Source of the DNA: a virus
IMG/VR virus record: IMGVR_UViG_3300010885_018083
Span: 1 to 20,303 of that record
Direction: 5' to 3' (one strand)
Length of the DNA stretch: 20,303 bases
In this document: positions 62-19,768 of the stretch, in pieces
How the letters are laid out: every line of letters begins with the position of its first letter
How positions within the stretch are numbered: the stretch's first letter is position 1
Program-made: the position numbers and the translations under genes
Notes under the pieces: model-generated
What the model saw: only the letters and a program-made list of their open reading frames with translations
The model's database searches: none
Told to the model about the DNA's origin: nothing

Positions 62-77
62 GACTTAAATATACGAC

Positions 78-102
78 AAATATTTGATATTTCCAAATAT
101 TT
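78..102. repeat. Perfect 9-bp AT-rich inverted repeat after the endonuclease gene
   Basis: AAATATTTG (78-86) and CAAATATTT (94-102) are exact reverse complements around a 7-base loop. The repeat starts at the last base of the endonuclease I stop codon. The stem is almost all A/T and no clean T-tract follows on the minus strand, so it would be a weak terminator at best. It may instead be a 3'-end-stabilising hairpin, or chance in AT-rich sequence. Confidence 0.35.
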
Positions 103-743: not shown

Positions 744-760
744 TGTTTTTTGTTTTTGTA

Positions 761-768
761 TATAAATA
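761..768 (-). promoter_or_regulatory. Candidate promoter element TATTTATA
   Basis: On the coding strand the 30-base gap contains TATATTTATATA, with its TATTTATA core 17 bases before the ATG at 743. The same core occurs in the other gaps of 30 bases or more in this window. No clear -35 element is seen. The role is inferred from recurrence and position. Confidence 0.4.
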
Positions 769-773
769 TAAGA

Positions 774-1964
774 TTATGTATCAAATCGTACAATAAAGTT
801 AACTGGTAAGTCAGAATATGATTTTATTGGTTTTGGTAATTTTGCAACTGCTACCAATTGACAATCATCATCGTATAATCCAATTGTTGTAATCATTGGT
901 GTTAAGAATGAACCCGTTGTATCCATAGAACCACTCATATCACCATGTTCAAATCCAGCTTTTATATTTCCAACCGAACCACTAAATGTATAAGAATAAT
1001 CTAATGAACCTGTTCCTGTTTCTAATACAAATGCTTTTTTAATATAATTTACACCAGGATTAATTGTTACTTTTGTAATTTTTCCATCGGTACTTATATG
1101 TGATTCTGTTTGTCTACCAATATTTACAACTGCGGATGGATTTGTTGATACATTAAATTCATCTTGTTCAGCTATAAGTAAATATTCATGTTCATAGATA
1201 GTTTGAGTAGATTTAAATGATACTTCCCAATTTGAATTTAATGATGAATTTACATTTCTTGTAAATACCAATAAACCCTGTGAATAAAACACATTACCTG
1301 CTCTATTAGTTCCTGCAGCACCTTCTAAAAATGTTGCATTTTTAACAAAAATTATACCATCTTGAATATCCATAGAAGTTATTTCACAAACAAATTCTTT
1401 TATTGGGTTACCTAATGAAATTGTAAATTCTCCTGTATTTATATCAACAAAATAGTTTGAGATACTTGATGAATATACACCACCTGCAATATCCGTAAAA
1501 TTAAATGTACTTCCTGTTAATTCTAGATAATTAAAAAAAATTTGAGAACCCGCTCCTGCTGCAATTAAATTTCCATATCCATCATCTACAAATTCCGTTG
1601 TACCATCCAAAACATATACTGAACCCTTTTTAATAGTTTCTCCAACATATATTTGTGGAATGGAAATAACTTTTGCCGAACCACTTAAAAATCTATCTTT
1701 TGTTGATTCAGTATTATTATATTCATTATTTTTATTTCCAAATCTTAAAAATGGATTATCTTCATGTCCATTGTAGAATTGTGCTCTTAATTGTCCATAT
1801 AAAGAATTTTTTTGAACTGATAAATTGTTTCCAATACTTAAATCCGAAGAATTCTCGTCTGCAACTAATAAATCAATTTGTGTAGAACCACTTGTAAAGT
1901 TCCACTCTTTATAGGCTTTAAATGGCCTAATACTAATATCTGATTTTGGTATTCTTTTTAACAT
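774..1964 (-). CDS. Fibre- or baseplate-type virion protein, paralogous C-terminus with the gene upstream
   Basis: This 396-residue protein is rich in Ser, Thr, Gly and Asn and predicted mostly beta, like phage fibre and peripheral baseplate proteins. Near the N-terminus is ISIRPFKAYKEW (residues 10-21), a style of motif I associate with virion proteins of large marine myoviruses (from memory). The last 39 residues begin ITTIGLYDDDCQLVAVAKLPKP and align without gaps to the last 39 residues of the preceding gene's product, 18 of them identical. Just before, EFNVSTNPSAV resembles EFNFSNNPSFV of the paralogue. No catalytic motif or coiled coil is seen. The ATG start lies 6 bases after a TATTTATA element that itself follows a terminator, so this gene probably opens a new transcription unit with a very short or absent leader. 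Whether it is a fibre, fibre attachment protein or baseplate decoration is not resolved. Confidence 0.8.
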   Translation of the reverse strand: MLKRIPKSDISIRPFKAYKEWNFTSGSTQIDLLVADENSSDLSIGNNLSVQKNSLYGQLRAQFYNGHEDNPFLRFGNKNNEYNNTESTKDRFLSGSAKVISIPQIYVGETIKKGSVYVLDGTTEFVDDGYGNLIAAGAGSQIFFNYLELTGSTFNFTDIAGGVYSSSISNYFVDINTGEFTISLGNPIKEFVCEITSMDIQDGIIFVKNATFLEGAAGTNRAGNVFYSQGLLVFTRNVNSSLNSNWEVSFKSTQTIYEHEYLLIAEQDEFNVSTNPSAVVNIGRQTESHISTDGKITKVTINPGVNYIKKAFVLETGTGSLDYSYTFSGSVGNIKAGFEHGDMSGSMDTTGSFLTPMITTIGLYDDDCQLVAVAKLPKPIKSYSDLPVNFIVRFDT

Positions 1965-1970
1965 ATCATA

Positions 1971-1978
1971 TATAAATA
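1971..1978 (-). promoter_or_regulatory. Candidate promoter element TATTTATA directly after a terminator
   Basis: The coding strand reads AAGATATTTATATATGAT before the ATG at 1964; the TATTTATA core ends 6 bases before the start codon. It sits immediately downstream of the hairpin at 1983-2022, where a new promoter would be needed. If it works as a -10 element, transcription would begin at or near the ATG and the mRNA would be almost leaderless. Confidence 0.45.
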
Positions 1979-1982
1979 TCTT

Positions 1983-2022
1983 AAAACTAAAAACCCACCA
2001 AATTACGGTGGGTTATAGTTTT
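1983..2022. terminator. Intrinsic terminator, possibly bidirectional
   Basis: A perfect 8-bp stem, AACCCACC (1992-1999) with GGTGGGTT (2007-2014), encloses a 7-base loop. It is extended by an outer 7-bp A/T stem, AAAACTA (1983-1989) with TAGTTTT (2016-2022), separated by a small asymmetric internal loop. On the minus strand the GC-rich stem is followed by TTTAGTTTTAA, which fits termination after the 406-residue protein gene that ends at 2038. The plus strand also has a T-rich run after the stem. This is the only GC-rich hairpin I see in the window. Confidence 0.75.
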
Positions 2023-2037
2023 TATTTTATTCTCCGA

Positions 2038-3258
2038 TTAGAAGTCTAATTTAACTTTGATTGCAATTTCTTTATCAAATGATTTCTCAACTGGTTTAGA
2101 AGTTTTTGCAACTGCTAATAATTCATTTGCATCATCATATAATCCAACAGTTGTAATATAAACATGTGGGTCATTTTCAAAAATAGTTTGAGTAAATGCA
2201 CCTACTGAACCTGTTACAAATGATGGGTTGTTTGAGAAATTAAATTCTCTATTGTTTGCTCTTACAAAATAATGAGATGTAGAAACATTTTCAGTTCTTC
2301 TAGCTTCAAAATGTGCACCTTTTTTTAATGCATCAAATAATTTCAAAGAACCAGATGATGAACCTGATTGGTGATATTGTCCTGCACTTGAACCTACTGC
2401 GAATGTAAGATTACCATCAACCGAAGAAGATAACGCCAAAGGATTTAATAATAAAATACCCATATCAGGATAGAATAAACCAAATCCATCATTATTACTT
2501 CCAGTTGTATATGCGGAAATAGATGCAGTTGTAGATGTTCCTATATTTAAAGAACCTTTTACTAAGTTATAAACTCTACCTGCAGTAGTTACTGTTTCAC
2601 CTGTTCCACCACTATCATCTATTAATGTCAAACTTCCTTTTGAACCTGAAAGTGTTAATGAAACATTTCCTGGGTCTAATCTTTCTTTGTATCTAGCTCT
2701 ATTGATATTAATAGCGTAAAAATTATTCATTGTGTTTCCACTATAATCTTTGAATTGATTAACACCTGGGTCTAAAAGAACATTTGCTAATTGATAATAC
2801 ATAGCAGTTGTTGATAATTTAGAAGATTGGTCTTGTGTAAGTGTTGGTGCACCTTTTCCACTATAATCACCATATGCTATTGAAAATTGAACTTCAGCGG
2901 CAGCGGATGATGTTACATCGTTGTATATATCCAAATAATAATCTCCACTATCTCCATTTAGTTGATTTGAAGATGTATAAAATGAATACAAAGAACCAGT
3001 ATCTCCACTCCATATTCCAGAAGTTACAACTTGTGTTCTATTTGTTACTTTATCGATTGCTCCAAATTTTTTATAAATACCATTTGAAATGGTAGCCATA
3101 TCGGAAGAGATTTGCTCACCTGTTCCTAAAAATTGGTTTACAATTCTAACTAATTCGTTAGTGTCAACTGGAGTACCTGCTGTATTAGCGGCTCCTGCTA
3201 AATATTGTGATAGATTGCTCGCTAATAACGAACCTCTATTGTCTCTTATTAATGCCAT
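2038..3258 (-). CDS. Fibre- or baseplate-type virion protein (406 residues)
   Basis: This is a long Ser/Gly/Thr-rich, beta-rich protein with the composition of a phage fibre or baseplate-attached structural protein. The N-terminus (MALIRDNRGSLLASNLSQYL) is followed by a possible helical segment to about residue 70; the middle carries repeated short SGS/TGS turns. EFNFSNNPSFV precedes the C-terminal module, whose last 39 residues begin ITTVGLYDDANELLAVAKTSKP and match the end of the next gene's product. The shared terminus suggests a common fold that docks both proteins to the same partner or promotes trimerisation (inference). The gene begins 7 bases after the 207-residue gene, has no Shine-Dalgarno sequence (leader ACAATAATTAAACT), and is followed by the only clear terminator in the window. 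The exact T4 counterpart cannot be named. Confidence 0.8.
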   Translation of the reverse strand: MALIRDNRGSLLASNLSQYLAGAANTAGTPVDTNELVRIVNQFLGTGEQISSDMATISNGIYKKFGAIDKVTNRTQVVTSGIWSGDTGSLYSFYTSSNQLNGDSGDYYLDIYNDVTSSAAAEVQFSIAYGDYSGKGAPTLTQDQSSKLSTTAMYYQLANVLLDPGVNQFKDYSGNTMNNFYAININRARYKERLDPGNVSLTLSGSKGSLTLIDDSGGTGETVTTAGRVYNLVKGSLNIGTSTTASISAYTTGSNNDGFGLFYPDMGILLLNPLALSSSVDGNLTFAVGSSAGQYHQSGSSSGSLKLFDALKKGAHFEARRTENVSTSHYFVRANNREFNFSNNPSFVTGSVGAFTQTIFENDPHVYITTVGLYDDANELLAVAKTSKPVEKSFDKEIAIKVKLDF

Positions 3259-3265
3259 AGTTTAA

Positions 3266-3889
3266 TTATTGTACATATGTTACTGTGATTGGAATAGTTT
3301 GTGAACCACCCGTTTCATTACCATATACAGTTATTGTTGTTTTAATTGTAGATGTTAATGAAGGATTTGGAATAAACTTAAATGTTAATCCTTTTGCAAT
3401 TGATGCAGTTGCTGATACATCGTCACCAATAAACATAGGAACCGTTCCTACATCTGATGTTACACCTTCACCTACTACATCTCCCGCGTTTTTATTAGAA
3501 AGAATAATTGTATATCCTAATGTTCTATTACCGGCCGGCGATGTGGTTGGTGATAAAGCAACTTCACCACTTTTTTGATTTACAGAAATATTTGGGACAC
3601 CAAATTCAACAACAGGAATCCTAGTTGTATTTTTTGGTAAAGTTACCAATTTATATTTCATTACATTTGTTTCATCTGGATTTGCTTCTAAAACTGGCAT
3701 ATTTTTAATTGCCACATCATAATAAGCAGAACCCAACGGATGTGCGGGCTCATAAAGGTTATAATCAATCTCATCATCTGCCAATGCAAATTGAGTAATG
3801 TTTAAACCCTGTCCTGCAGCTAATTTTTCCCTACCTTTTTTAGTAAGAATTGCATCAACTGTTAATTCATTGTTACTTAAATATCCCAT
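3266..3889 (-). CDS. Virion structural protein with conserved N-terminal module (207 residues)
   Basis: The N-terminal 85 residues contain LTVDAILTKKGREKLAAGQ, LNITQFALADDEIDYNLYEP and HPLGSAYYDVAIKNMPVLEA. From memory this is a module seen in uncharacterised structural proteins of large T4-like phages; I cannot verify it here. The C-terminal 100 residues are beta-rich (for example TTITVYGNETGGSQTIPITVTYV) and look like an immunoglobulin-like or similar beta-sandwich. There is no signal peptide or membrane segment. The gene lies between the giant tail protein and two fibre-like proteins, fitting a connector or small tail-tip component. Its 47-base upstream gap carries a TATTTATA element 21 bases before the ATG, so it may begin a transcription unit shared with the next gene up to the terminator. 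Confidence 0.8.
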   Translation of the reverse strand: MGYLSNNELTVDAILTKKGREKLAAGQGLNITQFALADDEIDYNLYEPAHPLGSAYYDVAIKNMPVLEANPDETNVMKYKLVTLPKNTTRIPVVEFGVPNISVNQKSGEVALSPTTSPAGNRTLGYTIILSNKNAGDVVGEGVTSDVGTVPMFIGDDVSATASIAKGLTFKFIPNPSLTSTIKTTITVYGNETGGSQTIPITVTYVQ

Positions 3890-3910
3890 AGTATTGTATT
3901 ATTCGTTTGT

Positions 3911-3918
3911 TATAAATA
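3911..3918 (-). promoter_or_regulatory. Candidate promoter element TATTTATA
   Basis: The coding strand reads AACTATATTTATAACAAACG, with the core 21 bases upstream of the ATG at 3889. It lies in the 47-base gap after the giant tail gene. The assignment rests on its recurrence in the other large gaps. Confidence 0.4.
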
Positions 3919-3936
3919 TAGTTTTTATAAAAATTA

Positions 3937-6900
3937 TTACTCAACTTCCAAAATTGGTTCATTTGCTGCTCTACCTGTCTTATTAACTTTTAATGTATTA
4001 GGGTTAGTTGCAAATGTTTCAATTGGAGAAGTTCCGTCTAAAGTGGTTGCAGCTGTATTTTTTGAACCCAAATAATATGAATTTTTTAATCCAGTTGTTA
4101 AATCACTTGTGTATTTATTATGTGTTGGTAAATACCCATCCACCGGATTAACCGATATAATATTTCCTGTTACTACTGGAGGAGTAGAGCCTGAAAATGG
4201 TTGTATATTTAATTCCGTTTCATTATAAACCGATGATGTTACATGATACCCACCACGAGGGTCTCCCACACCATTTGGTGCAAAATTAAAAACAATTATA
4301 TCTCTACGTTTTTGAGTAGTTACTAAATTTACTTTAACTCTTTCTTTTGTAAGAACATTATCTTTGTTATAGTAAGTTCTTAATGCTACACCTCTTTGTG
4401 CATATAATCCAAATCCAATTTCTTCATAATTAGACTGTCCTACTATTGTATTTGAATTTTGCAACTCTATTTCCGATAGTATTGTTGCATTTCCTAATTC
4501 CGCATTAATGTCAACTTCTTTTTGATAATAATCTGCAGTAGGTATTAAATTATTATTAAAATCAATAGATGTTGTATGTTGATAATTTTCTGCAATAATA
4601 CTTTGCAATGAACCCGTATAAATTGTAGTTTCATATTGGTTATTTTCTCCAAATATGTTTTCAAATAAACTTGATGTAAGTGTTACTTCGTATTGATTAT
4701 TATCAGCAATTATTGTAGATGTGTCACCAAAATGAATATCGGTTTGATATTGATTATTTTCTCCGGATGGTTTTTTATGAGCAACTTTACTTCTTTCTAA
4801 AAAGTGTGGTTCAATTAATAAACCAGTTGTTGCTTTAACTCTTGCTGGTAACATCTTCTTAATATCTTCAAACATAGATTTCTCATATAATTTGATTAAA
4901 TTAATGTATGCGTATATATCTCTACCATCAAACCTTTGAAAATAATAATTTCTTAAAGAATCCAAAGATTTATAATTTGATTTATAAAAATCTGAAGGGT
5001 CACCAATGTAGTTATCAATATTTAATCCACCAAATGATTTTGCAATATCAATATTTAATTCCTTTGTAGGTGAGAAAAATAATCCCACTCTATTTGAGTC
5101 TGTTGGAGATTGGTCAAATGCTTTTTTAGTTACTCTACTTTTTATTGATAAATCAACACCACCACTTACATCATTACCATTAAAATCGGTCTGTGATTCA
5201 AATCTAACTTTATTAGTTGAGTATCTACTTGCACCACCATCTGGATAATCCATTACAACCATTCTATCAACTATTTCAAAATTATATGGATATGTTGATA
5301 TATTTGTAAACTGACTTGCACTTACATATAATGAAGATGACGGATTTGTTGAATACAACGATGCGGTTGTACCATTTTCATAATGATTTCTAGTTAATCC
5401 ATTTGCAAAATAAATATTAGTATCAACATTTATTAATGATTGAGATACTGCTAAATTTTTTGGATATTCAAAATCCAATCTTAAATGTAAATCATGTGTA
5501 GAAGAAGATACACTATTACCATTAATCATTTCTGGGAATGAAACGTGGTTATAAAATATTTGTGTATTTAATTGTTCACTCCATAATCTAAATTCATCCA
5601 CACTACCACTATACGATTTACCCAATGTTATAGTAGAACCATTATTCCAATTTGTTAAATCGTTTATAGTTGTAGAACTTTCAAATATGGTTCGTTCTTT
5701 ATCCGATTGTCTTAAATCCAATTTTAAACCTTCCGAACCTGAACTTACTGAAATTCCGAAATATCTTCCATTAAATATTGGTAATAAAGATGAAGATATG
5801 TTTGTAGAACCACTATAATTAAATATTACTTTACCATAGTCACTATTCGATGAACCACTTAATTGAACATTCCAACCACTTCCTGAAATAACATTCCATT
5901 GGTTACCAAATGCGGGTTTTACAAACATTTCAATTGTATTTGGCTTTCTACCCTTGTCAGTAGATTTCCAATTAAAATCTAAATAAGAACCAGTATTCAT
6001 TACCAACGCAGTAGTAATGTTATCTATTACCAATTTACCTTTACTATCATTTGTAACTTCCGGGCCCCCAAATTCTAATATTGAAAGATTTGATGCAGGT
6101 ATTCCATAACAACTCATCAATGCGTATATTCCTCTTTTTGTTCCCTTATGTTTTAATAGATAAGGTAAGTTGTTTGCAATTCTTCTCCAAACTTCATATG
6201 TTCTTTGTTTGGCAGGATTAACAAATTTATCATTACCATTTTTATCTTTTCCAAATACATATTCCCATAAATGAGAATCGGATGCAAGATTTTTTGCGTC
6301 CCAACTCATTGATTTTAATGCATCAAATAATAACTTATCAGACATATTATTTTTGGATTGATACCCCATCCCTCTACTTCTTTCAATGGCTTTTCCGTGA
6401 AAATATATATTATCAAAATGTTGACCTATCATTGATAGAAATAAAAGTAAACTTTCATTTTCATTGTTATTTACAATATATTGTGGTACATTATTTTGAA
6501 CCCAGTCAGGATTTTCAATATCATATGATTCTGCTAAATCTATTAAATTATTATACCAATTAGTAATTACATTACTATTAGAAAGTAATCTATTATTTCC
6601 AGCGTGTGGCCACGTTAAAGAATCTACAGTGGATAATGTAAATGAAGATGGTGTATATAAGAATTTTTCAAACCCATCAAACCCTTGTATTACTTGATTC
6701 TTTTTTGTTGTTTGTCTTTCAACATCTTGCTGTGATGCTATCGTATTAACCCAAGATGATGTTTGAGAATTTGCAATATTTTGTTCATATAATTCTATTA
6801 ATTGTATTTTATAAATAAAATTATTTACTCTTTCTTTTGCCGAACTAAAATGTATAAAATTTTCCCATATGTAGGATGAACCATCTGTGTATTGTATATT

Positions 6901-9159
6901 TAAATCATCAACATCCATTATAGATGAACTTAAATATGTATTTATCAATTCATTTGAAGATGTTGAACCACTTAATATTAAATCATCTAGTGACTCATAG
7001 TTGGTCGAATTACCACTTACAAAATCTACATCAATACTAAAGTTTGGCCCTTTTATTGGTGGACAACTTAATGAATCTTGTTCGGATAATATAATGGTTT
7101 CAATTAATGGGTTACTCATTAATTTAGTAATCCACAATGTAGAATTTTCTGTTATATTTGCAGGAAGTGGTGTATATAATCTAACAATTATAGATTTTAT
7201 TTCATCTTCCGGTTTAACCATCATATTTCCTAACTCATCTTCCGATTTTTTAGATAATGACCAATTATCTTCTTCAAATGAAGAAATTATAATTTGTTCA
7301 TCATTTCCAAAATTTACTAAATGTGTTAAATATTTACTATCTTTTGATGGTTCGTTTATAGAAAGATTTTGAACAAATGCATCAAAAATACTTTTCTTAA
7401 TAATATCTTCGTCAAGATGAAGTGTTGGATATGCTATGTTAGTTAGAACTTCATATAAATTTCCTTTTAATTCATTTTCACCTCCTCTATTATATGGAGT
7501 AAATCCTAATATTAATTGTGTATTACCATTCCACTTTGGAAATTTTGTTGATAAATCTCTTAAATTTAAATTAAATACTCCATTTGGTGGTAAGTTTTTA
7601 AATAAATTTATAATATCTCCACCTTTATCTATTAAATCAACATCTACACTAGTAGCTGCAAATGAGTTATATTGTACATCAAAATCAATGTTTAAATCTG
7701 AAAATGATGGAATAACAATATCACTAGCATGTATAACTTCGGTTATAGATGGGTAATCGTTAACTGCAATAAAGTTTATTAAAACTTCAACTCTATCACC
7801 TGTACCATATAAATTACTAATAGGTACAATATAGATTTTTTTAGTACCATATACTCCACCATAGTCATTTTTAAATGATAATGGAATATTATTATTAGAA
7901 GCTTGTATTCTAAATATTTTGTCAGCTGCAATGTATACATCTACAAAATCCATATCCATACTGCTAAACGGAAGTTTAACAACCTTATCGGTATCGGAAT
8001 CTTTTACTTCTACATCATATTTTGTTTGATATAATGTAATAGATGGTTTTGCATATTGTAATACTTTTTCTATTTTTACATATATTACAATTCCACCATT
8101 TAATTGATTAGCGGGTAATTTAAATGGTTGTGATATTTCATTCCATTGAGAAAAATCCGTTGTTTTTAACGCAGTACTTTTTGTTGCGTAGTATATGTTT
8201 GTATAAGAATAATCGGATGGTAAATTTCCTTCAATTGTAAAAATTACTTCTCCTTTTTTTAATATATCCTCACTTATATATTTACCATCGGTATTACCAT
8301 TTGTTAATAAAACACTATTAGTTTCAATGATGTCTTGTCCAACGACAATATCATATTTTAAACTTAATATATCACCCAGCTCATTTTGAAAATTTGAATC
8401 AAAAGCAACTTCATAGTTTATATTTTTACTAACAGGCGTAGGGTCATCCGGCTTTGGAGTGGGTATTGAATTAAATTTAAATTCTAAAGATATTGTGCCT
8501 GTTGTTTTTTCTAAACTATTAATATTAGCCGCTCTTGCATTTGTTCCTTCATCGGAAAATACAAATTCTGTAATATTTAAACTTTCGGTATATTTAACAT
8601 CATTTGATGTTAAACTTGGAGAAAAATTATAATTCCAATTAAACAAACCATTTTGATTGCCATTAAATCCACCAAAACCATTATATCCTGTAAATCCGAT
8701 GAACATACTTGAATATAAACTATTATTCCTATCATTCATCCAATAATCTTCATAAACAAATTTTGGAGTTTGATATGCTTTTTGAACACTTACTACATAA
8801 TAATTTGATGGTTTTTTACCATTAACATATGCCATATATGTTCTACTACTACCAAATGTGGTAGCGGGTGAATAGACTAATGTGCTTGATACACCAATCC
8901 CCACACTATTATCATTATCAAAAAATTCCGCAGCCTCATTAGATAATAAATTTACTTTTAAAGAACCCTCATCCATATAAGATGGTGGCACAAAAGTTGG
9001 ATTTGGTGGTGTTGGTGGTATATATGTTCCACCTCCTCCACCTCTACCATCATTGATTCCTAAAAATGGTTGATATACCCCATCTCCATTGTATGCTACC
9101 GGGTCTATTGTATTTCCACCAAATCCGTTATCAAATAATTGATTTTTTACGTCTTGCAT
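3937..9159 (-). CDS. Giant multidomain tail/baseplate protein with LamG-like domain (1740 residues)
   Basis: This is the longest gene in the window. The N-terminus has a Gly/Pro linker (residues 38-59) and then a long beta-rich region to about residue 700. Around 998-1033 is a motif with KHKGTKRGIYAL, then YGIP, then ILEFGG. It resembles the KGT...GIP...EYGG pattern of baseplate-associated tail proteins. A LamG/concanavalin-A-like domain follows (about 1045-1210; IEMFVKP, then GSVDEFRLWSEQL), a fold often used for glycan binding. Residues 1468-1563 hold five tandem repeats of about 19 residues. Its place after gp25 and gp6 and its size fit a gp7-like wedge or large tail-tip component fused to receptor-binding modules (inference). 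No catalytic motif is seen. The ATG start is preceded by GAATAG, without a Shine-Dalgarno sequence. Confidence 0.82.
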   Translation of the reverse strand: MQDVKNQLFDNGFGGNTIDPVAYNGDGVYQPFLGINDGRGGGGGTYIPPTPPNPTFVPPSYMDEGSLKVNLLSNEAAEFFDNDNSVGIGVSSTLVYSPATTFGSSRTYMAYVNGKKPSNYYVVSVQKAYQTPKFVYEDYWMNDRNNSLYSSMFIGFTGYNGFGGFNGNQNGLFNWNYNFSPSLTSNDVKYTESLNITEFVFSDEGTNARAANINSLEKTTGTISLEFKFNSIPTPKPDDPTPVSKNINYEVAFDSNFQNELGDILSLKYDIVVGQDIIETNSVLLTNGNTDGKYISEDILKKGEVIFTIEGNLPSDYSYTNIYYATKSTALKTTDFSQWNEISQPFKLPANQLNGGIVIYVKIEKVLQYAKPSITLYQTKYDVEVKDSDTDKVVKLPFSSMDMDFVDVYIAADKIFRIQASNNNIPLSFKNDYGGVYGTKKIYIVPISNLYGTGDRVEVLINFIAVNDYPSITEVIHASDIVIPSFSDLNIDFDVQYNSFAATSVDVDLIDKGGDIINLFKNLPPNGVFNLNLRDLSTKFPKWNGNTQLILGFTPYNRGGENELKGNLYEVLTNIAYPTLHLDEDIIKKSIFDAFVQNLSINEPSKDSKYLTHLVNFGNDEQIIISSFEEDNWSLSKKSEDELGNMMVKPEDEIKSIIVRLYTPLPANITENSTLWITKLMSNPLIETIILSEQDSLSCPPIKGPNFSIDVDFVSGNSTNYESLDDLILSGSTSSNELINTYLSSSIMDVDDLNIQYTDGSSYIWENFIHFSSAKERVNNFIYKIQLIELYEQNIANSQTSSWVNTIASQQDVERQTTKKNQVIQGFDGFEKFLYTPSSFTLSTVDSLTWPHAGNNRLLSNSNVITNWYNNLIDLAESYDIENPDWVQNNVPQYIVNNNENESLLLFLSMIGQHFDNIYFHGKAIERSRGMGYQSKNNMSDKLLFDALKSMSWDAKNLASDSHLWEYVFGKDKNGNDKFVNPAKQRTYEVWRRIANNLPYLLKHKGTKRGIYALMSCYGIPASNLSILEFGGPEVTNDSKGKLVIDNITTALVMNTGSYLDFNWKSTDKGRKPNTIEMFVKPAFGNQWNVISGSGWNVQLSGSSNSDYGKVIFNYSGSTNISSSLLPIFNGRYFGISVSSGSEGLKLDLRQSDKERTIFESSTTINDLTNWNNGSTITLGKSYSGSVDEFRLWSEQLNTQIFYNHVSFPEMINGNSVSSSTHDLHLRLDFEYPKNLAVSQSLINVDTNIYFANGLTRNHYENGTTASLYSTNPSSSLYVSASQFTNISTYPYNFEIVDRMVVMDYPDGGASRYSTNKVRFESQTDFNGNDVSGGVDLSIKSRVTKKAFDQSPTDSNRVGLFFSPTKELNIDIAKSFGGLNIDNYIGDPSDFYKSNYKSLDSLRNYYFQRFDGRDIYAYINLIKLYEKSMFEDIKKMLPARVKATTGLLIEPHFLERSKVAHKKPSGENNQYQTDIHFGDTSTIIADNNQYEVTLTSSLFENIFGENNQYETTIYTGSLQSIIAENYQHTTSIDFNNNLIPTADYYQKEVDINAELGNATILSEIELQNSNTIVGQSNYEEIGFGLYAQRGVALRTYYNKDNVLTKERVKVNLVTTQKRRDIIVFNFAPNGVGDPRGGYHVTSSVYNETELNIQPFSGSTPPVVTGNIISVNPVDGYLPTHNKYTSDLTTGLKNSYYLGSKNTAATTLDGTSPIETFATNPNTLKVNKTGRAANEPILEVE
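4471..4758 (-). repeat. Five tandem 19-residue coding repeats in the giant tail protein
   Basis: The encoded segment, residues 1468-1563, consists of units of 19, 19, 19, 19 and 20 residues. They begin NNQYQTDI, NNQYEVTL, NNQYETTI, NYQHTTSI and YYQKEVDI, and most end in an acidic pair of type (A/G/S)(D/E). The first three are closest; the last two have diverged. At DNA level the period is 57 bases. Alternating hydrophobic residues suggest a repeating beta structure. Confidence 0.85.
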
Positions 9160-9170
9160 CTATTCTTTTT

Positions 9171-9178
9171 TATAAATA
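9171..9178 (-). promoter_or_regulatory. Candidate promoter element TATTTATA
   Basis: The coding strand reads GAAGTATTTATAAAAAAGAA, with the core 11 bases before the ATG at 9159, in the 35-base gap ahead of the giant tail gene. No -35 element is apparent. It is one of five such elements in gaps of 30 bases or more. Confidence 0.4.
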
Positions 9179-9194
9179 CTTCTAATTATTAAAT

Positions 9195-10481
9195 TTATTG
9201 TTGTGCGTTCATTAAAGAATCATTTGCAAAGTGATTTCCAAAATTACCATTTTCAAGTCTACTAATATCTTCACGGCCCATCCATCCGCCGCCACCTCCT
9301 CCTCCACCATATGCTCCAAGATTTGTTCCGTCAAAACTTTCTGTGATTGGATATTTCATCGGTTCAGGCGTTGGTTGAATTATAACAGGTTGGTCTGGTA
9401 ATGGGTCTATTGGTGCTACAATATCCATTGGTGGTGGTAAAATTGGGTCTACATTGTCATTAAATATTACATTCACTTTATTTGGTGAAAATATATTTCT
9501 TTTCAATGTAACCGGTGTTACAAACGCATCTAAATTATTTTGAATTTGTTTTTGTAATTCTTTTATTTTAAATTGTGATGGGATTGATTGTATTCCTAAA
9601 TCTCTTCTTTTTAATGACCTTAAATTATAATTTATAGAATCTATTAATATCATTAAAGTTTCATCTATTAACATACCAAAATCATATTGTTCACAATCTT
9701 CAAATCTAATTGCAGAATTACTACCATAACCCGCCTCACCTATCTTATAATATTTATTTGTTAAATAATATGTTACAGATGTTTTAAAATCTGACATTAT
9801 TTGTTTTTTTGTATTACCAAACTGGCTTAATCCAAAATCAATTTTAACAATATTAAAAAAATCTTTTCCAAATTGAGATTCAATTGTAGAATCTATTTTA
9901 TCTAAAAAATTATTTTCAAATGAATTTAAAGAATCTAAAAATTCTTTTTTATAATATTTAAAATCTTTATTTAAATTTTGTAAGTTATTAAATTCATGCG
10001 TTGTTTCATTATTTATATTATCATCTTTCGTTTTCAAAGGTAAAATACGAATTTCTTCTCTTGATGGTGATATCTCTTGTATCCAAACTCGTTTCATTTC
10101 ATCATTACTACCAACTCTAAATCTTACAAAATTTAAATTAACTTTAAGTATTCCATTTGTAAATCCAAATGTATTTAATAATTTTTCAATATCAATCGCA
10201 ATTTCTTTCTGTCCACCTGCGTTTGTTATTTTATACATAAATTCTTTAATATAACCTTTTCTTATATACGCAACTTTTTCATTAAATTTATTGGGTAACA
10301 AATTATTATTAATATCATAAACCGATACTTCCATTACATCATATTTACAATCACCAAAATCCGTTTCTTCTATTTGTTGATTTTTTGATATAATAAATAA
10401 ATCATCTAATTGAATAAATTTACCTTCATTTTCGGTATTAGAATTTATACCATCTATATTTGTATATTTTTTAATGCTCAT
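9195..10481 (-). CDS. Baseplate/tail structural protein with Pro-rich and poly-Gly tail (428 residues)
   Basis: The first 150 residues form a beta-rich domain ending in WIQEISPSREEIRILP (133-148), a motif I associate with structural proteins of marine T4-like phages (from memory). Residues 155-330 are Asn/Lys-rich and mostly helical, with FEDCEQYDFGMLIDETLMIL (260-279) as the most hydrophobic stretch. Residues 345-374 are Pro-rich (DPILPPPMDIVAPIDPLPDQ), followed by eight glycines (392-399) and a short polar end. The flexible C-terminus mirrors the Gly/Pro linker at the N-terminus of the next gene's giant product. The position between gp6 and the giant tail protein suggests a wedge component, perhaps in the place of gp8, but I see no decisive similarity. 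The gene begins 11 bases after its upstream neighbour with an A/T-rich leader. Confidence 0.8.
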   Translation of the reverse strand: MSIKKYTNIDGINSNTENEGKFIQLDDLFIISKNQQIEETDFGDCKYDVMEVSVYDINNNLLPNKFNEKVAYIRKGYIKEFMYKITNAGGQKEIAIDIEKLLNTFGFTNGILKVNLNFVRFRVGSNDEMKRVWIQEISPSREEIRILPLKTKDDNINNETTHEFNNLQNLNKDFKYYKKEFLDSLNSFENNFLDKIDSTIESQFGKDFFNIVKIDFGLSQFGNTKKQIMSDFKTSVTYYLTNKYYKIGEAGYGSNSAIRFEDCEQYDFGMLIDETLMILIDSINYNLRSLKRRDLGIQSIPSQFKIKELQKQIQNNLDAFVTPVTLKRNIFSPNKVNVIFNDNVDPILPPPMDIVAPIDPLPDQPVIIQPTPEPMKYPITESFDGTNLGAYGGGGGGGGWMGREDISRLENGNFGNHFANDSLMNAQQ

Positions 10482-10492
10482 ATATTAATTTA

Positions 10493-11608
10493 TTAAAATG
10501 ATGATGGATGCATTATTTGTACTTTTGTTTTGTAATCTTTTGTTTTTTCACTACCATCTGCACGTTTTACTTTTATAACAAATGTACCATCCAATTCTTT
10601 ACTTTTATCTCTACTACCATAAGAACATCCTGCCAAATTTGCTTTAAGTTTAATGGTTTTTTTAGTACCAGTATCCATAGTAAAGTTTGTTTCTGGAATA
10701 GTTAAAAAGTTTTGGCCTGTTGGTGGATTATGTGTTAATGTTATAGTCACAGGACTATTATCATTGTTAACCAAATCCAATGTATTACCCCAATCAAATA
10801 AAGTATACCCTGTATTATTTTTAAATCTAACTCTAATTGTATTTCCTTCTATTGTATCTTTTGGAGTGAATTTTGCTACCACTACATCATTTACAACATC
10901 ACCACCTAGTGCAGCTGCTGCATTGGCAGTTGATTGTTGAATTGCCTGTTGCTGTTGTACCGCACCTAATTGAGATTGTAAACCTTCAATGATTGAATTT
11001 AAAGAATCAATTTGTTTTATAAGTGCTTCAATTTGTGCTTTGAATCCTTGATTTTGAGATTGTAACGATGCTCTTAAAATAGATTCATCAACTGATTTTT
11101 GTAAAGAGATTCCAATTTGACTTGCAAAATCGCTTATAGTAGCACCTAATGTTGCCATTTGATTTTGAAGAATATCATTTAATTGTTCTATAATTAATTT
11201 TTGACTTACTTCATATTGTATTTGTGCTTCTAATAAATTAATTTGACTTTCTAAATCAGCAATTTGCAAATTTAAGTCTGCTACTTCTATTCTTAAAGCA
11301 TTTACTTCTTCTACCTTTGCATCATACATCGGCCTTGGAACTAAATCTAATTTTGGTTTTGGAATATTTGGTTTTAACTCCGTTAATTCTACATTAATTG
11401 CTTTAACTAATTCTGTTGTATCTAATTTTGTTTTTGTTAATGGTTTAAATATTAATGATGATGCAATATTTGTATCATCAACTACAGTTATTCCATAATC
11501 ATTTTTTGTTATAGCTGCAGAACCAGATATACTTAAAATAGTTTCTAAGTCCGAATGTCTTTTTTCAGACAATTTTTGAGCTATTGCTTCTAATGATGTT
11601 AATGCCAT
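10493..11608 (-). CDS. Coiled-coil plus beta-sandwich virion protein (371 residues)
   Basis: Residues 1-95 form a mixed N-terminal region. Residues 96-155 and 185-232 carry clear heptad patterning (for example LRIEVADLNLQIADLESQ and IKQIDSLNSIIEGLQSQL), indicating a long trimeric or dimeric coiled coil that ends in a Gln run (VQQQQAIQQ). Residues 243-371 are a beta-rich domain (NTIRVRFKNNTGYTLFDWGN, later GTFVIKVKRADGSE) resembling an immunoglobulin-like or carbohydrate-binding sandwich. This layout of anchor, rod and head is typical of short fibres or whisker-like proteins. The gene is linked to the preceding one by a TAATG overlap, so the two are probably translated together and at similar levels. 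The function as a fibre or baseplate spacer is inferred. Confidence 0.8.
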   Translation of the reverse strand: MALTSLEAIAQKLSEKRHSDLETILSISGSAAITKNDYGITVVDDTNIASSLIFKPLTKTKLDTTELVKAINVELTELKPNIPKPKLDLVPRPMYDAKVEEVNALRIEVADLNLQIADLESQINLLEAQIQYEVSQKLIIEQLNDILQNQMATLGATISDFASQIGISLQKSVDESILRASLQSQNQGFKAQIEALIKQIDSLNSIIEGLQSQLGAVQQQQAIQQSTANAAAALGGDVVNDVVVAKFTPKDTIEGNTIRVRFKNNTGYTLFDWGNTLDLVNNDNSPVTITLTHNPPTGQNFLTIPETNFTMDTGTKKTIKLKANLAGCSYGSRDKSKELDGTFVIKVKRADGSEKTKDYKTKVQIMHPSSF

Positions 11609-12693
11609 TATTCTACTATTTCAAATTTTAATTTATCATCTATTATAGTAGATATTCCGTTTTCAATTATTTTCAATTTTAATACATAAGTCCTACCTGC
11701 TGGTAATGTATTTAAATCTAAAATAAAATAATTTGTAGTTATATCACAACTTATTTTTGAATAATCATCAAATGGAATTACTACTTCATTTGTTATATAA
11801 TCTTCAATTTGGTAATATGTTGTTTTTGGTAAATATTTAACTTGGTCATAAACAAAGGTAGTTCCAAATGATTTAAGTGGATACATATCTCTACCTTTAA
11901 CTTTTAACTTAATTTTACTATCTTTTAAATACTCCGTTTTTAAATTTGTAACTACAATTTTATAATCATCTTGTGCCGAACCTGTGACAGGACTCAAACT
12001 TCCGGTTATAAAAGAACTATCATCCCAAACTAATTCTAATTTTGGTTGATATATTGTATTTGTTTCTTTTGAAAAAAATTTAAGAATACCATAATCCAAA
12101 TCATCCAATTCGTTTGTCAAACCATGATGAATTATAAATCCATTATTTGGTAAAGACCCACTAATTAAAATTGTTATAATATTTGTTACATCAATTCTAA
12201 CATCATCTATTTCATTATTAAATGATTGTGATGCCATAGATGCAGTATACCAAGTTCCACCTTCTGCATTTGCAGAACCCGTTGTTCCTGTTGCAAAAAC
12301 TGCGGTTCCTCCAATTACATTATCTTGCCAAGTATTTACTCCATTTCTATATTTCCAACTAATTCCATCTGAAGAAATATTATCAAATTTAGTACCAGTT
12401 CCCATTGTCCAACTTTGAGAAACGGCATTTGCATATAGTGTATATTCTAATGGGATTTCCTCCGAATTAGCAGCTTTTAAATTAATATAAGCTTTCCAAC
12501 TTCCTGTAATGTTTTCACTACGAATTGAGGACGATATTGAATTTATATCAAATTTAATAAATGTTCTAGCAATATCTTTTGTAGAACCATAGTATAATTT
12601 ACCAATTTCCAATATTTCATCCCTACCGGCGTTTTGTTCTGGTTGTTGTAAATAAATACTTGCGTCGTATGATGATGTATAAAATTTATGCAT
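11608..12693 (-). CDS. DNRLRE-like beta-domain virion protein (361 residues)
   Basis: The N-terminal half looks like a DNRLRE-type beta-sandwich, a carbohydrate-binding-like module: it begins YTSSYDASIYLQQPEQNAGR and ILEIGKLYYGSTKDIARTFI, matching the usual pattern of DATI..., an Asn/Gly turn and a strand leading to an Arg-rich core strand. It ends around residue 210 with LDYGILKFFSKETNTIYQPK, equivalent to the GLLL.S.E...PKL strand of that family. Residues 225-361 form a second beta-rich domain. In this phage it takes the slot directly after gp6, so it is probably a baseplate-attached accessory protein. TAATG overlaps join it to both neighbours, and its start has a Shine-Dalgarno-like GGGAGG. 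Sugar binding is possible but not shown by the sequence. Confidence 0.75.
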   Translation of the reverse strand: MHKFYTSSYDASIYLQQPEQNAGRDEILEIGKLYYGSTKDIARTFIKFDINSISSSIRSENITGSWKAYINLKAANSEEIPLEYTLYANAVSQSWTMGTGTKFDNISSDGISWKYRNGVNTWQDNVIGGTAVFATGTTGSANAEGGTWYTASMASQSFNNEIDDVRIDVTNIITILISGSLPNNGFIIHHGLTNELDDLDYGILKFFSKETNTIYQPKLELVWDDSSFITGSLSPVTGSAQDDYKIVVTNLKTEYLKDSKIKLKVKGRDMYPLKSFGTTFVYDQVKYLPKTTYYQIEDYITNEVVIPFDDYSKISCDITTNYFILDLNTLPAGRTYVLKLKIIENGISTIIDDKLKFEIVE

Positions 12694-14735
12694 TATAAAG
12701 CCCTCCCTTTTATGTCTTTTGTTGGATATTTAACTTCGAAAATGCAAGGGTCTAATGATGGATAGATTATTTTACCCTTTGTTGCAGAGTCTATGTTATA
12801 TTTGTTTGGTGAATAATTTCCATCTCCACCACATAAATTTGAAATCTTTACGGATGGTACACTCATAACTCCTTCTACATTTGCTAATATTAATTCTATT
12901 TCGGAAAGGTTAATTGGTTTATTAAATGTCCAATTATCTATATCAAAATAAGTTTGTATTTCAGTTAAACAATTTGCAAGTACTTCTCTTTTATTATAAT
13001 TAGAATATGTGACTATTTCAAAATCACAACCAATATTAACAATAAATCCATCCATTATATTAACTGCATCGGTCATCATTCTATATTCACCTAAATAGGT
13101 TTTAAGATTTTGTTTAACTGCTTGATTTATTTGTGTTAATTTTTTTTCATTGTCATAACCTAATAAATACATATTAATTGCAAATGGATTGTTTACTTCT
13201 GCATTTGCATTTTTCTTTTGAGATAAATATTTTACTAATTCTTTTTGTATTTCAGATGGTTTTTTATCTTTTAACGATTCTACTACACCAACAAATTCTG
13301 CTATATTATTTGGACTTGCTAAAATAGATGCAGGTGAATTATTATCAATCTCACCATCGGCAGATACATATACTTTTGTTACACTACCATATCTTTCTGG
13401 CATAGATAATGCTCTCACAATATAGTCTTGTCTTGTAACTGCTCTATTTTGAGAACCAAATGTTGCAATCGCATTTTGTCTAATTTCTTCAATAGTTTCC
13501 GCACCTCTCCCACCAACTGCAGCTTCTAAATTTTCAACTGCTACGGTTGTTTTAATATCTAAATATGACGACCTTTCTGCATCGTTTGAAAATGATAATA
13601 AATCATCTTCAAATTCTATTTTTTGAATATTTGATAAATCACCGGTATTGATATTAGAATCAATTCCACCGCCTGTTAAATATTTAACTATCAATGTTTT
13701 ACCAACAGGAGTTATACCAAATGTATTTGTTTTTAAAAAATTAGAAGGGTCAATTCCTTTATTTAATCTTTCGATTGAATTTGCAAGACCTAATCCTATG
13801 TTTTTTGAATTTGGTAATAATTGTTCATCATTCATTGTTGTATCTCCACTTCCAAATTGTAAATCCATTGTATTGTTTGAATTTACTTTTACTGAAAATC
13901 TATATGGTACTTTTTGAACTTCTAAAATATAAGGAACAGATGCTATGGATGATGCATCATATTGTTCATCGTTTGTATTTGCTGTTGTATTTGGTTGTTC
14001 TACAAATATACTTTCTTGTGCTAAATAAGGAACTTCATACCACTTAACTGAACCACCATCGGATGTTACGGATGTTATTTGAATTATATTTGTATCGGAT
14101 AATGTTACATATGGATATTCCGAATATGCACCAAAATCAAATGTTGCACTTTTTTCAGATGCCGATATTGCTTTTACTTTTTTAGTAATTAAATATTGTG
14201 TTGGAACTCCTGTGGTTGGTTCTCTTTCAAACACTTCAATTTCTCTATCCGTTGGATTTGCAAAATCAACAATATCAGTTGTTCTAAATACTACATTTGG
14301 ATTTGTTGTTGATTTAACTTCTAAACCATCTTTTATTTTTAAATAAAATTTAGAATCAGGCCCATTATTTATTCCTGTTTCATTATTTGATAAACATAGT
14401 TGATATATTGTCAATGTAGTTACTGGAGGTGATGTTACTTTTGGTTTATATCCCATTGACTGAGCCAATGATATTACATTTTTCCTTTCGGATGCATGTG
14501 CTAACATTGATTCTTTTAATTGTGTATCTTGATAAAAAGATAACACATCACCCAGTGCTGCGGCCTGTTCTATAAAGACCATACCTGGAGAAGCTTCATT
14601 AAAATCGGAATATGTATTTGGGAAATATGTTTTGGTAAAATCAATAAGATTTTGTCTAAAACTTGCAAAGTCTTTTCCTACATAACTTAATGTTTTATTG
14701 CTTCCAAAATTTTTATTTATAGGTTTAATCGCCAT
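12693..14735 (-). CDS. Baseplate wedge protein gp6-like (baseplate J family)
   Basis: At 680 residues this is close to T4 gp6 (660), the wedge protein that forms the ring joining baseplate wedges. The N-terminal signature runs NEASPGMVFIEQAAALGDVL, then FYQDTQLKESMLAHASER, then AQSMGYKP (about residues 46-97), the usual start of gp6/J-type proteins. Around 400-450 is GGRGAETIEEIRQNAIATFG followed by NRAVTRQDYIVRA, the conserved core of the baseplate J family. The C-terminal part, with NVEGVMSVPSVKI, is also typical. The gene directly follows gp25 with a TAATG overlap, the classic gp25-gp6 neighbourhood of contractile-tail phages. The start is the ATG overlapping the gp25 stop; the protein begins MAIKPINKNFG, fitting family members. 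Confidence 0.93.
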   Translation of the reverse strand: MAIKPINKNFGSNKTLSYVGKDFASFRQNLIDFTKTYFPNTYSDFNEASPGMVFIEQAAALGDVLSFYQDTQLKESMLAHASERKNVISLAQSMGYKPKVTSPPVTTLTIYQLCLSNNETGINNGPDSKFYLKIKDGLEVKSTTNPNVVFRTTDIVDFANPTDREIEVFEREPTTGVPTQYLITKKVKAISASEKSATFDFGAYSEYPYVTLSDTNIIQITSVTSDGGSVKWYEVPYLAQESIFVEQPNTTANTNDEQYDASSIASVPYILEVQKVPYRFSVKVNSNNTMDLQFGSGDTTMNDEQLLPNSKNIGLGLANSIERLNKGIDPSNFLKTNTFGITPVGKTLIVKYLTGGGIDSNINTGDLSNIQKIEFEDDLLSFSNDAERSSYLDIKTTVAVENLEAAVGGRGAETIEEIRQNAIATFGSQNRAVTRQDYIVRALSMPERYGSVTKVYVSADGEIDNNSPASILASPNNIAEFVGVVESLKDKKPSEIQKELVKYLSQKKNANAEVNNPFAINMYLLGYDNEKKLTQINQAVKQNLKTYLGEYRMMTDAVNIMDGFIVNIGCDFEIVTYSNYNKREVLANCLTEIQTYFDIDNWTFNKPINLSEIELILANVEGVMSVPSVKISNLCGGDGNYSPNKYNIDSATKGKIIYPSLDPCIFEVKYPTKDIKGRAL
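12702..12707 (-). promoter_or_regulatory. Shine-Dalgarno-like GGGAGG before the DNRLRE-like gene
   Basis: The coding strand reads GGGAGG, then 8 bases, then the ATG at 12693. It also encodes the last residues of gp6 (KGRAL), so it may be coincidental. It is the only good Shine-Dalgarno match at a normal distance among the starts checked; the gp25 start has a weaker AAAGG. Confidence 0.35.
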
Positions 14736-15172
14736 TATTTATTTACATTTATAGTTATTGTTTCTGTTAAATTGGGATTAGACGATAATGCAAATTTTAT
14801 TTCTAATATAATTCTATTTAAATCTATATCAGTATCATCGTAATCAAAAATAATATTAGTTATTGTTAAATATGGTAACCAAGTTTCTACCGCATCTATT
14901 ATATAATTTTCAATTAAATTTTCAATGATTTGGCCATCCATAGGTTCAAATAATACTTTCCAAACATCACAACCAAATTCAGGTTGCATTAACCTTTCAC
15001 CTTTTCTAGTAAGTATTAAATTTTTAATGTTATCTTTTGCCTGATTTAAAGTTGTATAATTTACAGCAAATACTCCACCTTTATTAGAATTTTTATTAAT
15101 TCCAATACCAAGTACTTTATAATCGTTTTGAGTTAAATCATCTACTTTAACTTTACCAAGCTCTATTGCCAT
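14735..15172 (-). CDS. Baseplate wedge protein gp25-like (GPW/gp25 family)
   Basis: This 145-residue protein matches T4 gp25 (132 residues), which nucleates sheath assembly on the baseplate and is shared with phage P2 gpW and type VI secretion TssE. The diagnostic stretch is LILTRKGERLMQPEFGCDVW followed by KVLFEP (residues 52-77). It holds the conserved Glu59-Arg60 and the PEFG turn. The C-terminal beta strands (LTITNIIFDYDDTDIDLNRI and IILEIKFAL) complete the fold. It is joined to the upstream Gln-rich gene and to the downstream gp6 gene by TAATG overlaps on both sides, implying coupled translation of wedge components. A weak AAAGG lies 6 bases before the start. Confidence 0.94.
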   Translation of the reverse strand: MAIELGKVKVDDLTQNDYKVLGIGINKNSNKGGVFAVNYTTLNQAKDNIKNLILTRKGERLMQPEFGCDVWKVLFEPMDGQIIENLIENYIIDAVETWLPYLTITNIIFDYDDTDIDLNRIILEIKFALSSNPNLTETITINVNK

Positions 15173-15708
15173 TATCTACCTTTCTTTTGTTTTTCTTGTT
15201 CTGCAAATACTTTTGTTAGTGCACTATAATCTCTTGTTAAAGCTTTCATAGTTGCGTCTTGTAACGCATCTCCTGTTGATTGTAATTGTTGTGGAATATT
15301 TTGAGGTACTCCTATATCTCTATAATTCATTGTTTCCCAATCTTCTTCCATAGTTCTTTGTGGTTGCATCATATCTAATACACTACCACCACCATTTGCC
15401 ATACCACCTTCTGCTCTTTGTTGTGAGGTGAATGGTTGTGTTTGATTCAATACTTCATTCAACATTGGGTTATTTGTAAATACCTTTTGTTGTCTTTGTG
15501 GTTGTTGAATTGATTCTTGTTTTTTAATTGGTCTCTCATATTGATTAACTTCTGTCAAATCTTTTAATGAGGGGGTTGATGTTTTCTTTTGTGAGTTCAA
15601 TGTAACTGCACCAGATTTAATAAGTTTAACAAGTTCTTCTTTTACTTGTAACTTAACTTCGTTTTTAACAACTTCTTTAATTAAAGTTAATAAAATTTCT
15701 GATTTCAT
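15172..15708 (-). CDS. Gln-rich protein of unknown function (178 residues)
   Basis: I do not recognise a named family. Residues 1-34 form an amphipathic helix (LLTLIKEVVKNEVKLQVKEE), which could mediate oligomerisation or docking. The middle is low-complexity and Gln/Pro/Thr-rich, with NNPMLNEVLNQTQPF (about 79-93) and a Gly-rich GGMANGGGS. The C-terminus has a helix (DALQDATMKALTRDYSALTK) and a basic Lys end. The layout, helix-disorder-helix, suits a scaffold, chaperone or minor virion linker. Its place directly before gp25, joined by TAATG, ties it to baseplate assembly. The gene is preceded by a 53-base gap with a TATTTATT element, so it may begin the gp25-gp6 transcription unit. Its leader is A-rich, without a Shine-Dalgarno sequence. 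Confidence 0.75.
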   Translation of the reverse strand: MKSEILLTLIKEVVKNEVKLQVKEELVKLIKSGAVTLNSQKKTSTPSLKDLTEVNQYERPIKKQESIQQPQRQQKVFTNNPMLNEVLNQTQPFTSQQRAEGGMANGGGSVLDMMQPQRTMEEDWETMNYRDIGVPQNIPQQLQSTGDALQDATMKALTRDYSALTKVFAEQEKQKKGR

Positions 15709-15736
15709 AAAATAATTGTTTTGTATATGGTTTAGT

Positions 15737-15744
15737 AATAAATA
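15737..15744 (-). promoter_or_regulatory. Candidate promoter element TATTTATT (one-base variant)
   Basis: The coding strand reads TTCAATATTTATTACTAAAC, with the core 28 bases upstream of the ATG at 15708, in the 53-base gap before the Gln-rich gene. It differs by one base from the TATTTATA of the other gaps. It would drive the coupled series that includes gp25 and gp6. Confidence 0.35.
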
Positions 15745-15761
15745 TTGAAGATTTAGTTTAT

Positions 15762-19000: not shown

Positions 19001-19768
19001 TTATATTATCTTGTTCTCTACTATATAATTATTAAGTTCCTGACTTATTAGATTATATCCTTTTGTGTTTGGATGTTGTGCTGGGTTTTTTGTTATCATT
19101 TTTATATCTTCAAAACAATCTGTGCCAGTTTCTTTTAATAAATCTCTCATTGTTTTTTTACGATATTGCCAATAATATTTTGTTGTAATTAAATTTGTCA
19201 CATCATCCGTTTCATTTGGATTTACTACCATTGTATCAAATGCATCACACATTAGATATTTTATACCATAATATTCAAATAATTTTTGTAAAAATATTAT
19301 GTAGTTTTGATTAACTATATTGTAATAATTTTGATTAAAAAGATTATCTAAAAAAAATGATTTATATTCTTTTAAAAATGAATCATATATTTCATTATTA
19401 CTTTTATATGAATTGATAAATTTTTCAGGTAAACTAACCAAATGTTTTATAGACCAACTAACCCATTGTTGTCTTGGTAAAAATGCAGCATAATCTCTTA
19501 AAGATGAACTCCACATTATAATAACTAAATCATTTTTTTTAATTCTACCATTTGTAACATCATCAATAATTGAATTAAATATAACCGAATTTGGATTACC
19601 ACTTTTACCATTATTAATCCATTGTAAATTTAATTTATCTGAAAGTGATTTAACCCAAGAATTTTGATTTCTATAAATTATTAATTCTTGATTTTTAAGA
19701 GTAGATTCTATTTCTAAATTACAACCCTCACCCTCTGTCCAACTATCACCATATGCATGTAGTATCAT
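19001..19768 (-). CDS. SGNH/GDSL-hydrolase-like protein (255 residues)
   Basis: The N-terminus HAYGDSWTEGEG (residues 4-15) is a block I GDS motif with nucleophile Ser9. Block II is likely NNGKSGNPN (52-60), supplying Gly57 and Asn58. The strand VIIMWSSS (82-89) takes the place of block III, but the usual GxND is not evident. The C-terminal block V is NPAQHPNTKGY (228-238) with His232; the usual Asp three residues before it is Pro229, so the catalytic triad may be altered. Family members are esterases or lipases, many removing acetyl groups from sugars. The ATG overlaps the carbamoyltransferase stop (TAATG), so the two are probably translated together and may act on the same glycan or modified substrate. 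It lacks a signal peptide, hence a cytoplasmic or virion role. Confidence 0.7.
   Translation of the reverse strand: MILHAYGDSWTEGEGCNLEIESTLKNQELIIYRNQNSWVKSLSDKLNLQWINNGKSGNPNSVIFNSIIDDVTNGRIKKNDLVIIMWSSSLRDYAAFLPRQQWVSWSIKHLVSLPEKFINSYKSNNEIYDSFLKEYKSFFLDNLFNQNYYNIVNQNYIIFLQKLFEYYGIKYLMCDAFDTMVVNPNETDDVTNLITTKYYWQYRKKTMRDLLKETGTDCFEDIKMITKNPAQHPNTKGYNLISQELNNYIVENKII

Follow-up and report, generated by a model that had tools for sequence, protein, structure and literature searches.

The window (that is, the whole stretch of 20,303 bases of a virus record that was analysed) has a GC content of 29.5% and carries every gene on the minus strand. Its products include T4-like baseplate proteins, gp25 (14735-15172) and a gp6-like protein (12693-14735), in an operon of which gene 15708-15172 is the first, together with a resolvase-like endonuclease (102-527). 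A megablast search of the window against 50,697 phage records gave nothing close; protein comparison gives two cultured relatives, Flavobacterium phage immuto and Microcystis phage Mel-JY01, and IMG/VR yielded 80 relatives by gp25 and more by the candidate sigma factor considered below. For the portal protein of G001, a large relative, the scores are 566 bits with immuto, 237 with Rhodothermus phage RM378 and 76 with T4, consistent with membership of the Far-T4 clade, of which RM378 is the representative (PMC4360716). The features of the window that enter the argument are as follows.

66..97, minus strand: housekeeping-type promoter, TTTGG (97-93), 19-base spacer and TATATTTA (73-66), in the layout of the 48-site class described below
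761..768, minus strand: candidate late-promoter octamer TATTTATA (extended form TATATTTATATA), 17 bases 5' of the ATG of gene 743-537
1971..1978, minus strand: candidate late-promoter octamer TATTTATA (extended form GATATTTATATA), between a terminator and the ATG of gene 1964-774
1992..2014, minus strand: intrinsic terminator, 9-pair stem and T-run, directly upstream of the octamer at 1971..1978
3911..3918, minus strand: candidate late-promoter octamer TATTTATA (extended form CTATATTTATAA), 5' of gene 3889-3266
9171..9178, minus strand: candidate late-promoter octamer TATTTATA (extended form AGTATTTATAAA), 5' of the 1740-residue-protein gene 9159-3937
15737..15744, minus strand: candidate late-promoter octamer TATTTATT (extended form AATATTTATTAC), 5' of gene 15708-15172, first of the gp25/gp6 baseplate operon
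19768..20303, minus strand: 3' part of a NolO-like carbamoyltransferase gene; in relatives a sigma-like gene lies immediately upstream, which here would fall beyond the window end

A preliminary description of this DNA had reported four copies of TATTTATA and one of TATTTATT on the coding strand, and all five were located. They occupy, as it had recognized, exactly the five gaps of at least 30 bases (744-773, 1965-2037, 3890-3936, 9160-9194 and 15709-15761, with lengths of 30, 73, 47, 35 and 53 bases), the remaining gaps between the window genes, by the obvious gene calls, being at most 11 bases long. Its distances from core to ATG (17, 6, 21, 11 and 28 bases) are correct, and the terminator that it had noticed directly before one copy is real (2014-1992, with the copy at 1978-1971). 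The 1740-residue protein encoded at 3937-9159, downstream of one of these octamers, has no PHROG match.

The placement of the octamer in the gaps is genuine and far beyond chance. TATTTAT is the sole 7-mer common to all five gaps of at least 30 bases, and TATTTAT[AT] is found in the sense orientation in 5/5 of them, with no antisense copy in those gaps. Equal frequency in shuffled gaps had been named as an objection; when dinucleotide shuffles were made of each gap, none of 20,000 reached five of five and the best reached three, the per-gap probabilities of 0.9-6.9% giving a product of 1.5e-7 for the five window gaps. Counted over the full 20,303 bases, the octamer shows no enrichment (10 found versus 7.6 expected), and the coding sequence holds two further sense copies (3072 and 6810) and four antisense copies. 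The signal therefore lies in place and strand and not in number.

Conservation of the octamer among relatives

The same placement is kept in the relatives. An octamer lies 5' of the ortholog of gene 743-537 in 5/5 distinct relatives, and in 9/9 and 3/3 distinct ortholog upstreams of genes 3889-3266 and 9159-3937, respectively. For gene 1964-774, the order of terminator, octamer and ATG is retained in seven of the eight distinct upstreams, and the layout of 2014-1965 is seen again in G001, G002 and others. TATTTAT is present in 65 of the 70 distinct 70-base ortholog upstreams of gene 15708-15172, and in 0 of the 79 distinct upstreams of the next, gapless gene 15172-14735.

In the relatives, the octamer that was first described is better rendered as a core of ATATTTAT followed by A or T, which in gaps is almost solely sense. 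Counted in co-oriented gaps from a simple gene caller, with first-order Markov gaps as the null, ATATTTAT stands at 21:0 (sense:antisense) in G001 (198 kb), 18:0 in G002 (137 kb), 17:1 in immuto (160 kb) and 17:1 in Mel-JY01 (190 kb), the Markov gaps for these four large genomes having means of 1.4-1.6 and maxima of 4-6; the enrichment in one orientation that had been expected of a promoter is thus present. In these genomes, ATATTTAT is ~19 to 185 times as dense in gaps as in coding sequence on the sense strand. Three groups of relatives ranked by the identity of the sigma-like protein gave 25:0, 22:2 and 46:1, the last of these from distant relatives in which that protein is only 42-50% identical. 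As a control, the same script applied to T4 returned 12:0 for TATAAATA and 0:12 for TATTTATA. Octamers start a median of 29-31 bases 5' of the ATG (43 in Mel-JY01), with a range of 12-157. One gap (G001:160827-160927, with its counterpart at G002:93680) bears two octamers ~20 bases apart on opposite strands, kept in both genomes, and a putative plus-strand ORF of 59 amino acids.

Two promoter classes and the genes behind them

The genomes that carry the octamer also carry a second class, TTTGG-N19-TATATTTG (that is, the Bacteroidota housekeeping promoter), and with both classes in each genome the contrast between them is internal to each genome. An upstream TTG box is part of Bacteroidota promoters. 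Among the TAnnTTTG gap sites of the window's relatives, TTG starts 23 bases upstream in 31 of 48 non-redundant sites (Poisson P 1e-28), TAnnTTTG being the -7 box of this phylum (PMC9723704). Mel-JY01 has TTGC at -23 of TAnnTTTG. In immuto, TTG at -23 accompanies TATATTTAG[GA] in 8/8 cases, and sense TAnnTTTG was not found in its co-oriented gaps; its early-type class, TTG-N20-TATATTTAG[GA]TA, is a consistent variant of the host -7 box. The window itself contains one promoter of the housekeeping layout (97-66), which lies 3' of the last gene, matches a G001 site of the same layout and presumably drives the next gene beyond the window. A scan of the window for E. coli-type sigma-70 promoters was uninformative (112 sites versus 136 expected). 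Mel-JY01 (PP395634) was recorded from Microcystis elabens and bears Bacteroidota-type promoters; possibly this host assignment is mistaken, or else the phage infects associated Bacteroidota.

The octamer class has no such upstream box. TTG occurs at any one upstream position in at most 4 of 67 octamer sites, in agreement with the lack of a -35 element noted in the preliminary description, and a search for a -35 element upstream of the octamer gave nothing beyond a GAT at -17, which is weak and present in 11 of the 67 non-redundant sites. Compared with the Bacteroidota sigma A promoter, the octamer class shares the ATATTT stretch and a position 5' of genes, yet reads ATATTTA and not ATATTTG (that is, the final G of the TAnnTTTG box is absent), is without the upstream TTG and precedes virion genes. 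To judge by these sequences, the octamer looks like a -7 box with the G replaced and the upstream partner gone, a likeness that may parallel that between the T4 late box and the E. coli -10 box.

The two classes also divide by gene function. Genes for tail, sheath, baseplate and terminase proteins follow octamer sites; in immuto, the genes concerned are those for tail spike, terminase, tail fibre, structural, sheath, tail completion and baseplate hub proteins, whereas the other class precedes a small-gene block at 60-77 kb and the gene for the ssDNA-binding protein. A virion or packaging annotation is borne by the gene directly behind 8 of 18 octamer sites in immuto, compared with 0 of 20 in the other class (a tally made by hand, with one gap holding both classes counted as octamer; P 0.0009 by Fisher's test, and 0.0019 without that gap). 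In G001, octamer genes include those for tail tube, sheath, tail fibre/baseplate and head-tail adaptor, and housekeeping-type genes include those for GroEL, an exonuclease and an endonuclease, and also the portal gene, which makes the functional split imperfect. From gene function, we infer that the octamer set is late and the other set early.

A candidate sigma factor

In G001, an unannotated protein of 229 residues is encoded immediately upstream of the carbamoyltransferase gene, with homologs close to the baseplate cluster in all large relatives, among them immuto (gene 152) and Mel-JY01; the window's own copy is out of sight because the record ends inside the neighbouring carbamoyltransferase gene. 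The Pfam family Sigma70_r2 matches the protein of four relatives with 12.7-13.7 bits, below the cut-off (T4 gp55 scores 14.5), and no other sigma candidate was found in those four; the proteins of immuto and Mel-JY01 gave no Sigma70_r2 match. Searches against PHROGs, Pfam and PDB sequences returned no significant sigma match and no PHROG late sigma factor, and the profile found no match in Tenacibaculum phage pT24. Aligned with hhalign against a gp55 profile, the profile of 54 homologs is collinear over 99 columns (P 0.0023, with a probability of only 12.5%).

The AlphaFold model, built from 54 diverse sequences, has a pLDDT of 82 (68 from 20 close sequences). The best Z for the predicted fold falls to T4 gp55 in an open complex (7d7c_F; Z 10.1, rmsd 5.2, 117 of 137 residues), and its other matches in the PDB and BFVD are overwhelmingly sigma factors. 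In helical folds, middling Z values arise by chance. The predicted structure has the fold of sigma-70 region 2, and the assignment, weak by sequence, is drawn mainly from this predicted fold. The family further carries ~95 C-terminal residues that are missing in gp55, with predicted helices at 161-175, 185-196 and 200-224.

The operon of the sigma-like gene follows a housekeeping-type promoter in G001 and in immuto, and in immuto the gap that directly follows the sigma gene contains an octamer. Co-occurrence suggests that the octamer and this protein form a pair. A multisubunit RNA polymerase (PF00562) was not found; the corresponding search for a single-subunit enzyme (PF00940) was uninformative given that the controls were silent.

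A proposed late transcription system in Far-T4 phages

We consider it highly probable that the octamer is a late promoter without a -35 element, used by T4-like phages of Bacteroidota and read by a gp55-like phage sigma factor of altered specificity. A late promoter of this kind, with a sigma specificity other than that of T4, had been proposed from the window and is now favoured by the comparative evidence, given the strand-specific enrichment in the gaps of many relatives, the position 5' of virion genes, the separate housekeeping promoter class in the same genomes and the sigma-like protein that the phages encode. Under this model, the host housekeeping sigma would serve early and middle genes through TTTGG-N19-TATATTTG, and one such housekeeping-type operon would encode the ~230-residue phage sigma with its gp55-like region 2. 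This sigma would then bind host RNA polymerase, recognise a single box of ~8 bases (ATATTTAT then A/T, in place of the -10/-7 box and with no -35/-33 box) and start transcription of the virion operons at the octamer, late in infection.

The closest parallel is with T4, whose late promoter is an 8-bp box without conservation at -35 (PMC2988020, PMC2984593); a late consensus like that of T4 is known from KVP40, 44RR and S-PM2, with a variant in Aeh1 (PMC2988020, PMC2984593). The gp55 system of T4, KVP40 and S-PM2 resembles the one proposed here in its one 8-bp box at -10 with no -35 element, its virion genes and its small region-2 sigma (PMC2988020). Unlike it, the present core is ATATTTAT[AT] where that of T4 is TATAAATA, the sigma-like protein adds its C-terminal domain of ~95 residues, and no gp45-type sliding clamp was matched by PF02916 or PF02767 in four large genomes, which may hold a diverged clamp (T4 matches PF02916). 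The T4-type octamer TATAAATA (or NATAAATA) was not found on the sense strand, G001 giving 0:19 (sense:antisense) against 12:0 for T4. The octamer would work like a T4 late promoter, although by sequence it is not of T4 type, its core differing from the signal of T4 and of its studied relatives.

Three other readings were weighed. The octamer could be a promoter for a host housekeeping or alternative sigma, with a phage activator standing in for the -33 contact (compare MotA/AsiA at T4 middle promoters). ATATTT is indeed common to the octamer and the host -7 box TATATTTG, and the weak GAT lies 17 bases upstream; however, A replaces the final G of TAnnTTTG, a -33 box is missing and the GAT signal belongs to a minority of sites and is in part due to the stop codons with which orthologous genes end upstream. 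As the presence of the phage sigma-like gene in all large relatives also argues against it, we regard such an arrangement as unlikely. There is still less to recommend a role at the mRNA level, where the octamer would enhance translation or mark a processing site in leaders of Bacteroidota type. The octamer does lie within presumed 5' leaders, and hosts of this phylum use translation signals other than Shine-Dalgarno (PMC9723704), yet its distance to the ATG varies between 12 and 157 bases, TATTTAT is missing from all 79 distinct upstreams of the gapless gene 14735-15172 and the same genomes use, in alternation with the octamer, a class of sites recognisable as promoters; this makes the reading very improbable. 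Finally, TATTTATA is, as had been pointed out, the exact reverse complement of T4's TATAAATA, but ordinary T4-type late promoters firing antisense transcripts from the other strand are hardly credible, given that the sites lie a median of ~29 bases 5' of start codons and sometimes directly after terminators, that the common extended form ATATTTATT, reversed, does not fit the T4 box and that the strand bias of T4 itself is opposite. The likeness is probably incidental: what the octamer resembles is a Bacteroidota -7 box in which another base stands for the final G and from which the -33 TTG is missing.

If the octamer is a late promoter read by a phage sigma, the Far-T4 phages may possess a late system of their own; in this version, which we put forward only tentatively, a one-piece sigma would join the gp55-like region 2 to a second domain acting as gp33 or region 4 and would dispense with a clamp, and its box would have evolved alongside the Bacteroidota -7 box, in the way that the T4 late box has a likeness to the E. 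coli -10 element. Far-T4 phages have been detected in marine and freshwater viromes, and when they were surveyed in 2015 none of the core genes by which T4 regulates transcription were found, from which the authors drew the conclusion that transcription in these phages might be different (PMC4360716). A class of late promoters, with a sigma candidate to match, would supply what was missing. They would also be an example of a promoter code changing in a phage lineage whose hosts have another housekeeping promoter, and would offer an easy way to recognise late genes, and the probable host phylum, from sequence in metagenomic phage contigs. The literature searched gave no description of the octamer box; subscription papers, including the RM378 genome paper, lie outside that search and may contain an earlier mention. 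These proposals are open to experiment with a cultured pair, Flavobacterium LMO8 and phage immuto.

RM378 extends the comparison to another host, Rhodothermus. It encodes a homologous sigma-like protein (Rm378p020, E 2e-10) and has a strand-biased gap word, TATTTAA, 5' of sheath, tube and terminase-region genes; in this genome of 42% GC, the word is sense in 16 of 49 tandem gaps and antisense in three (Markov mean 1.0). Its seventh base is A where the octamer has T, and, unlike the phages described here, RM378 has a second, annotated sigma factor, p144, the end of which is region-4-like. TATTTAA is found in nearly half of the gene upstreams of RM378; of 15 divergent gaps, 6 have it in both orientations.
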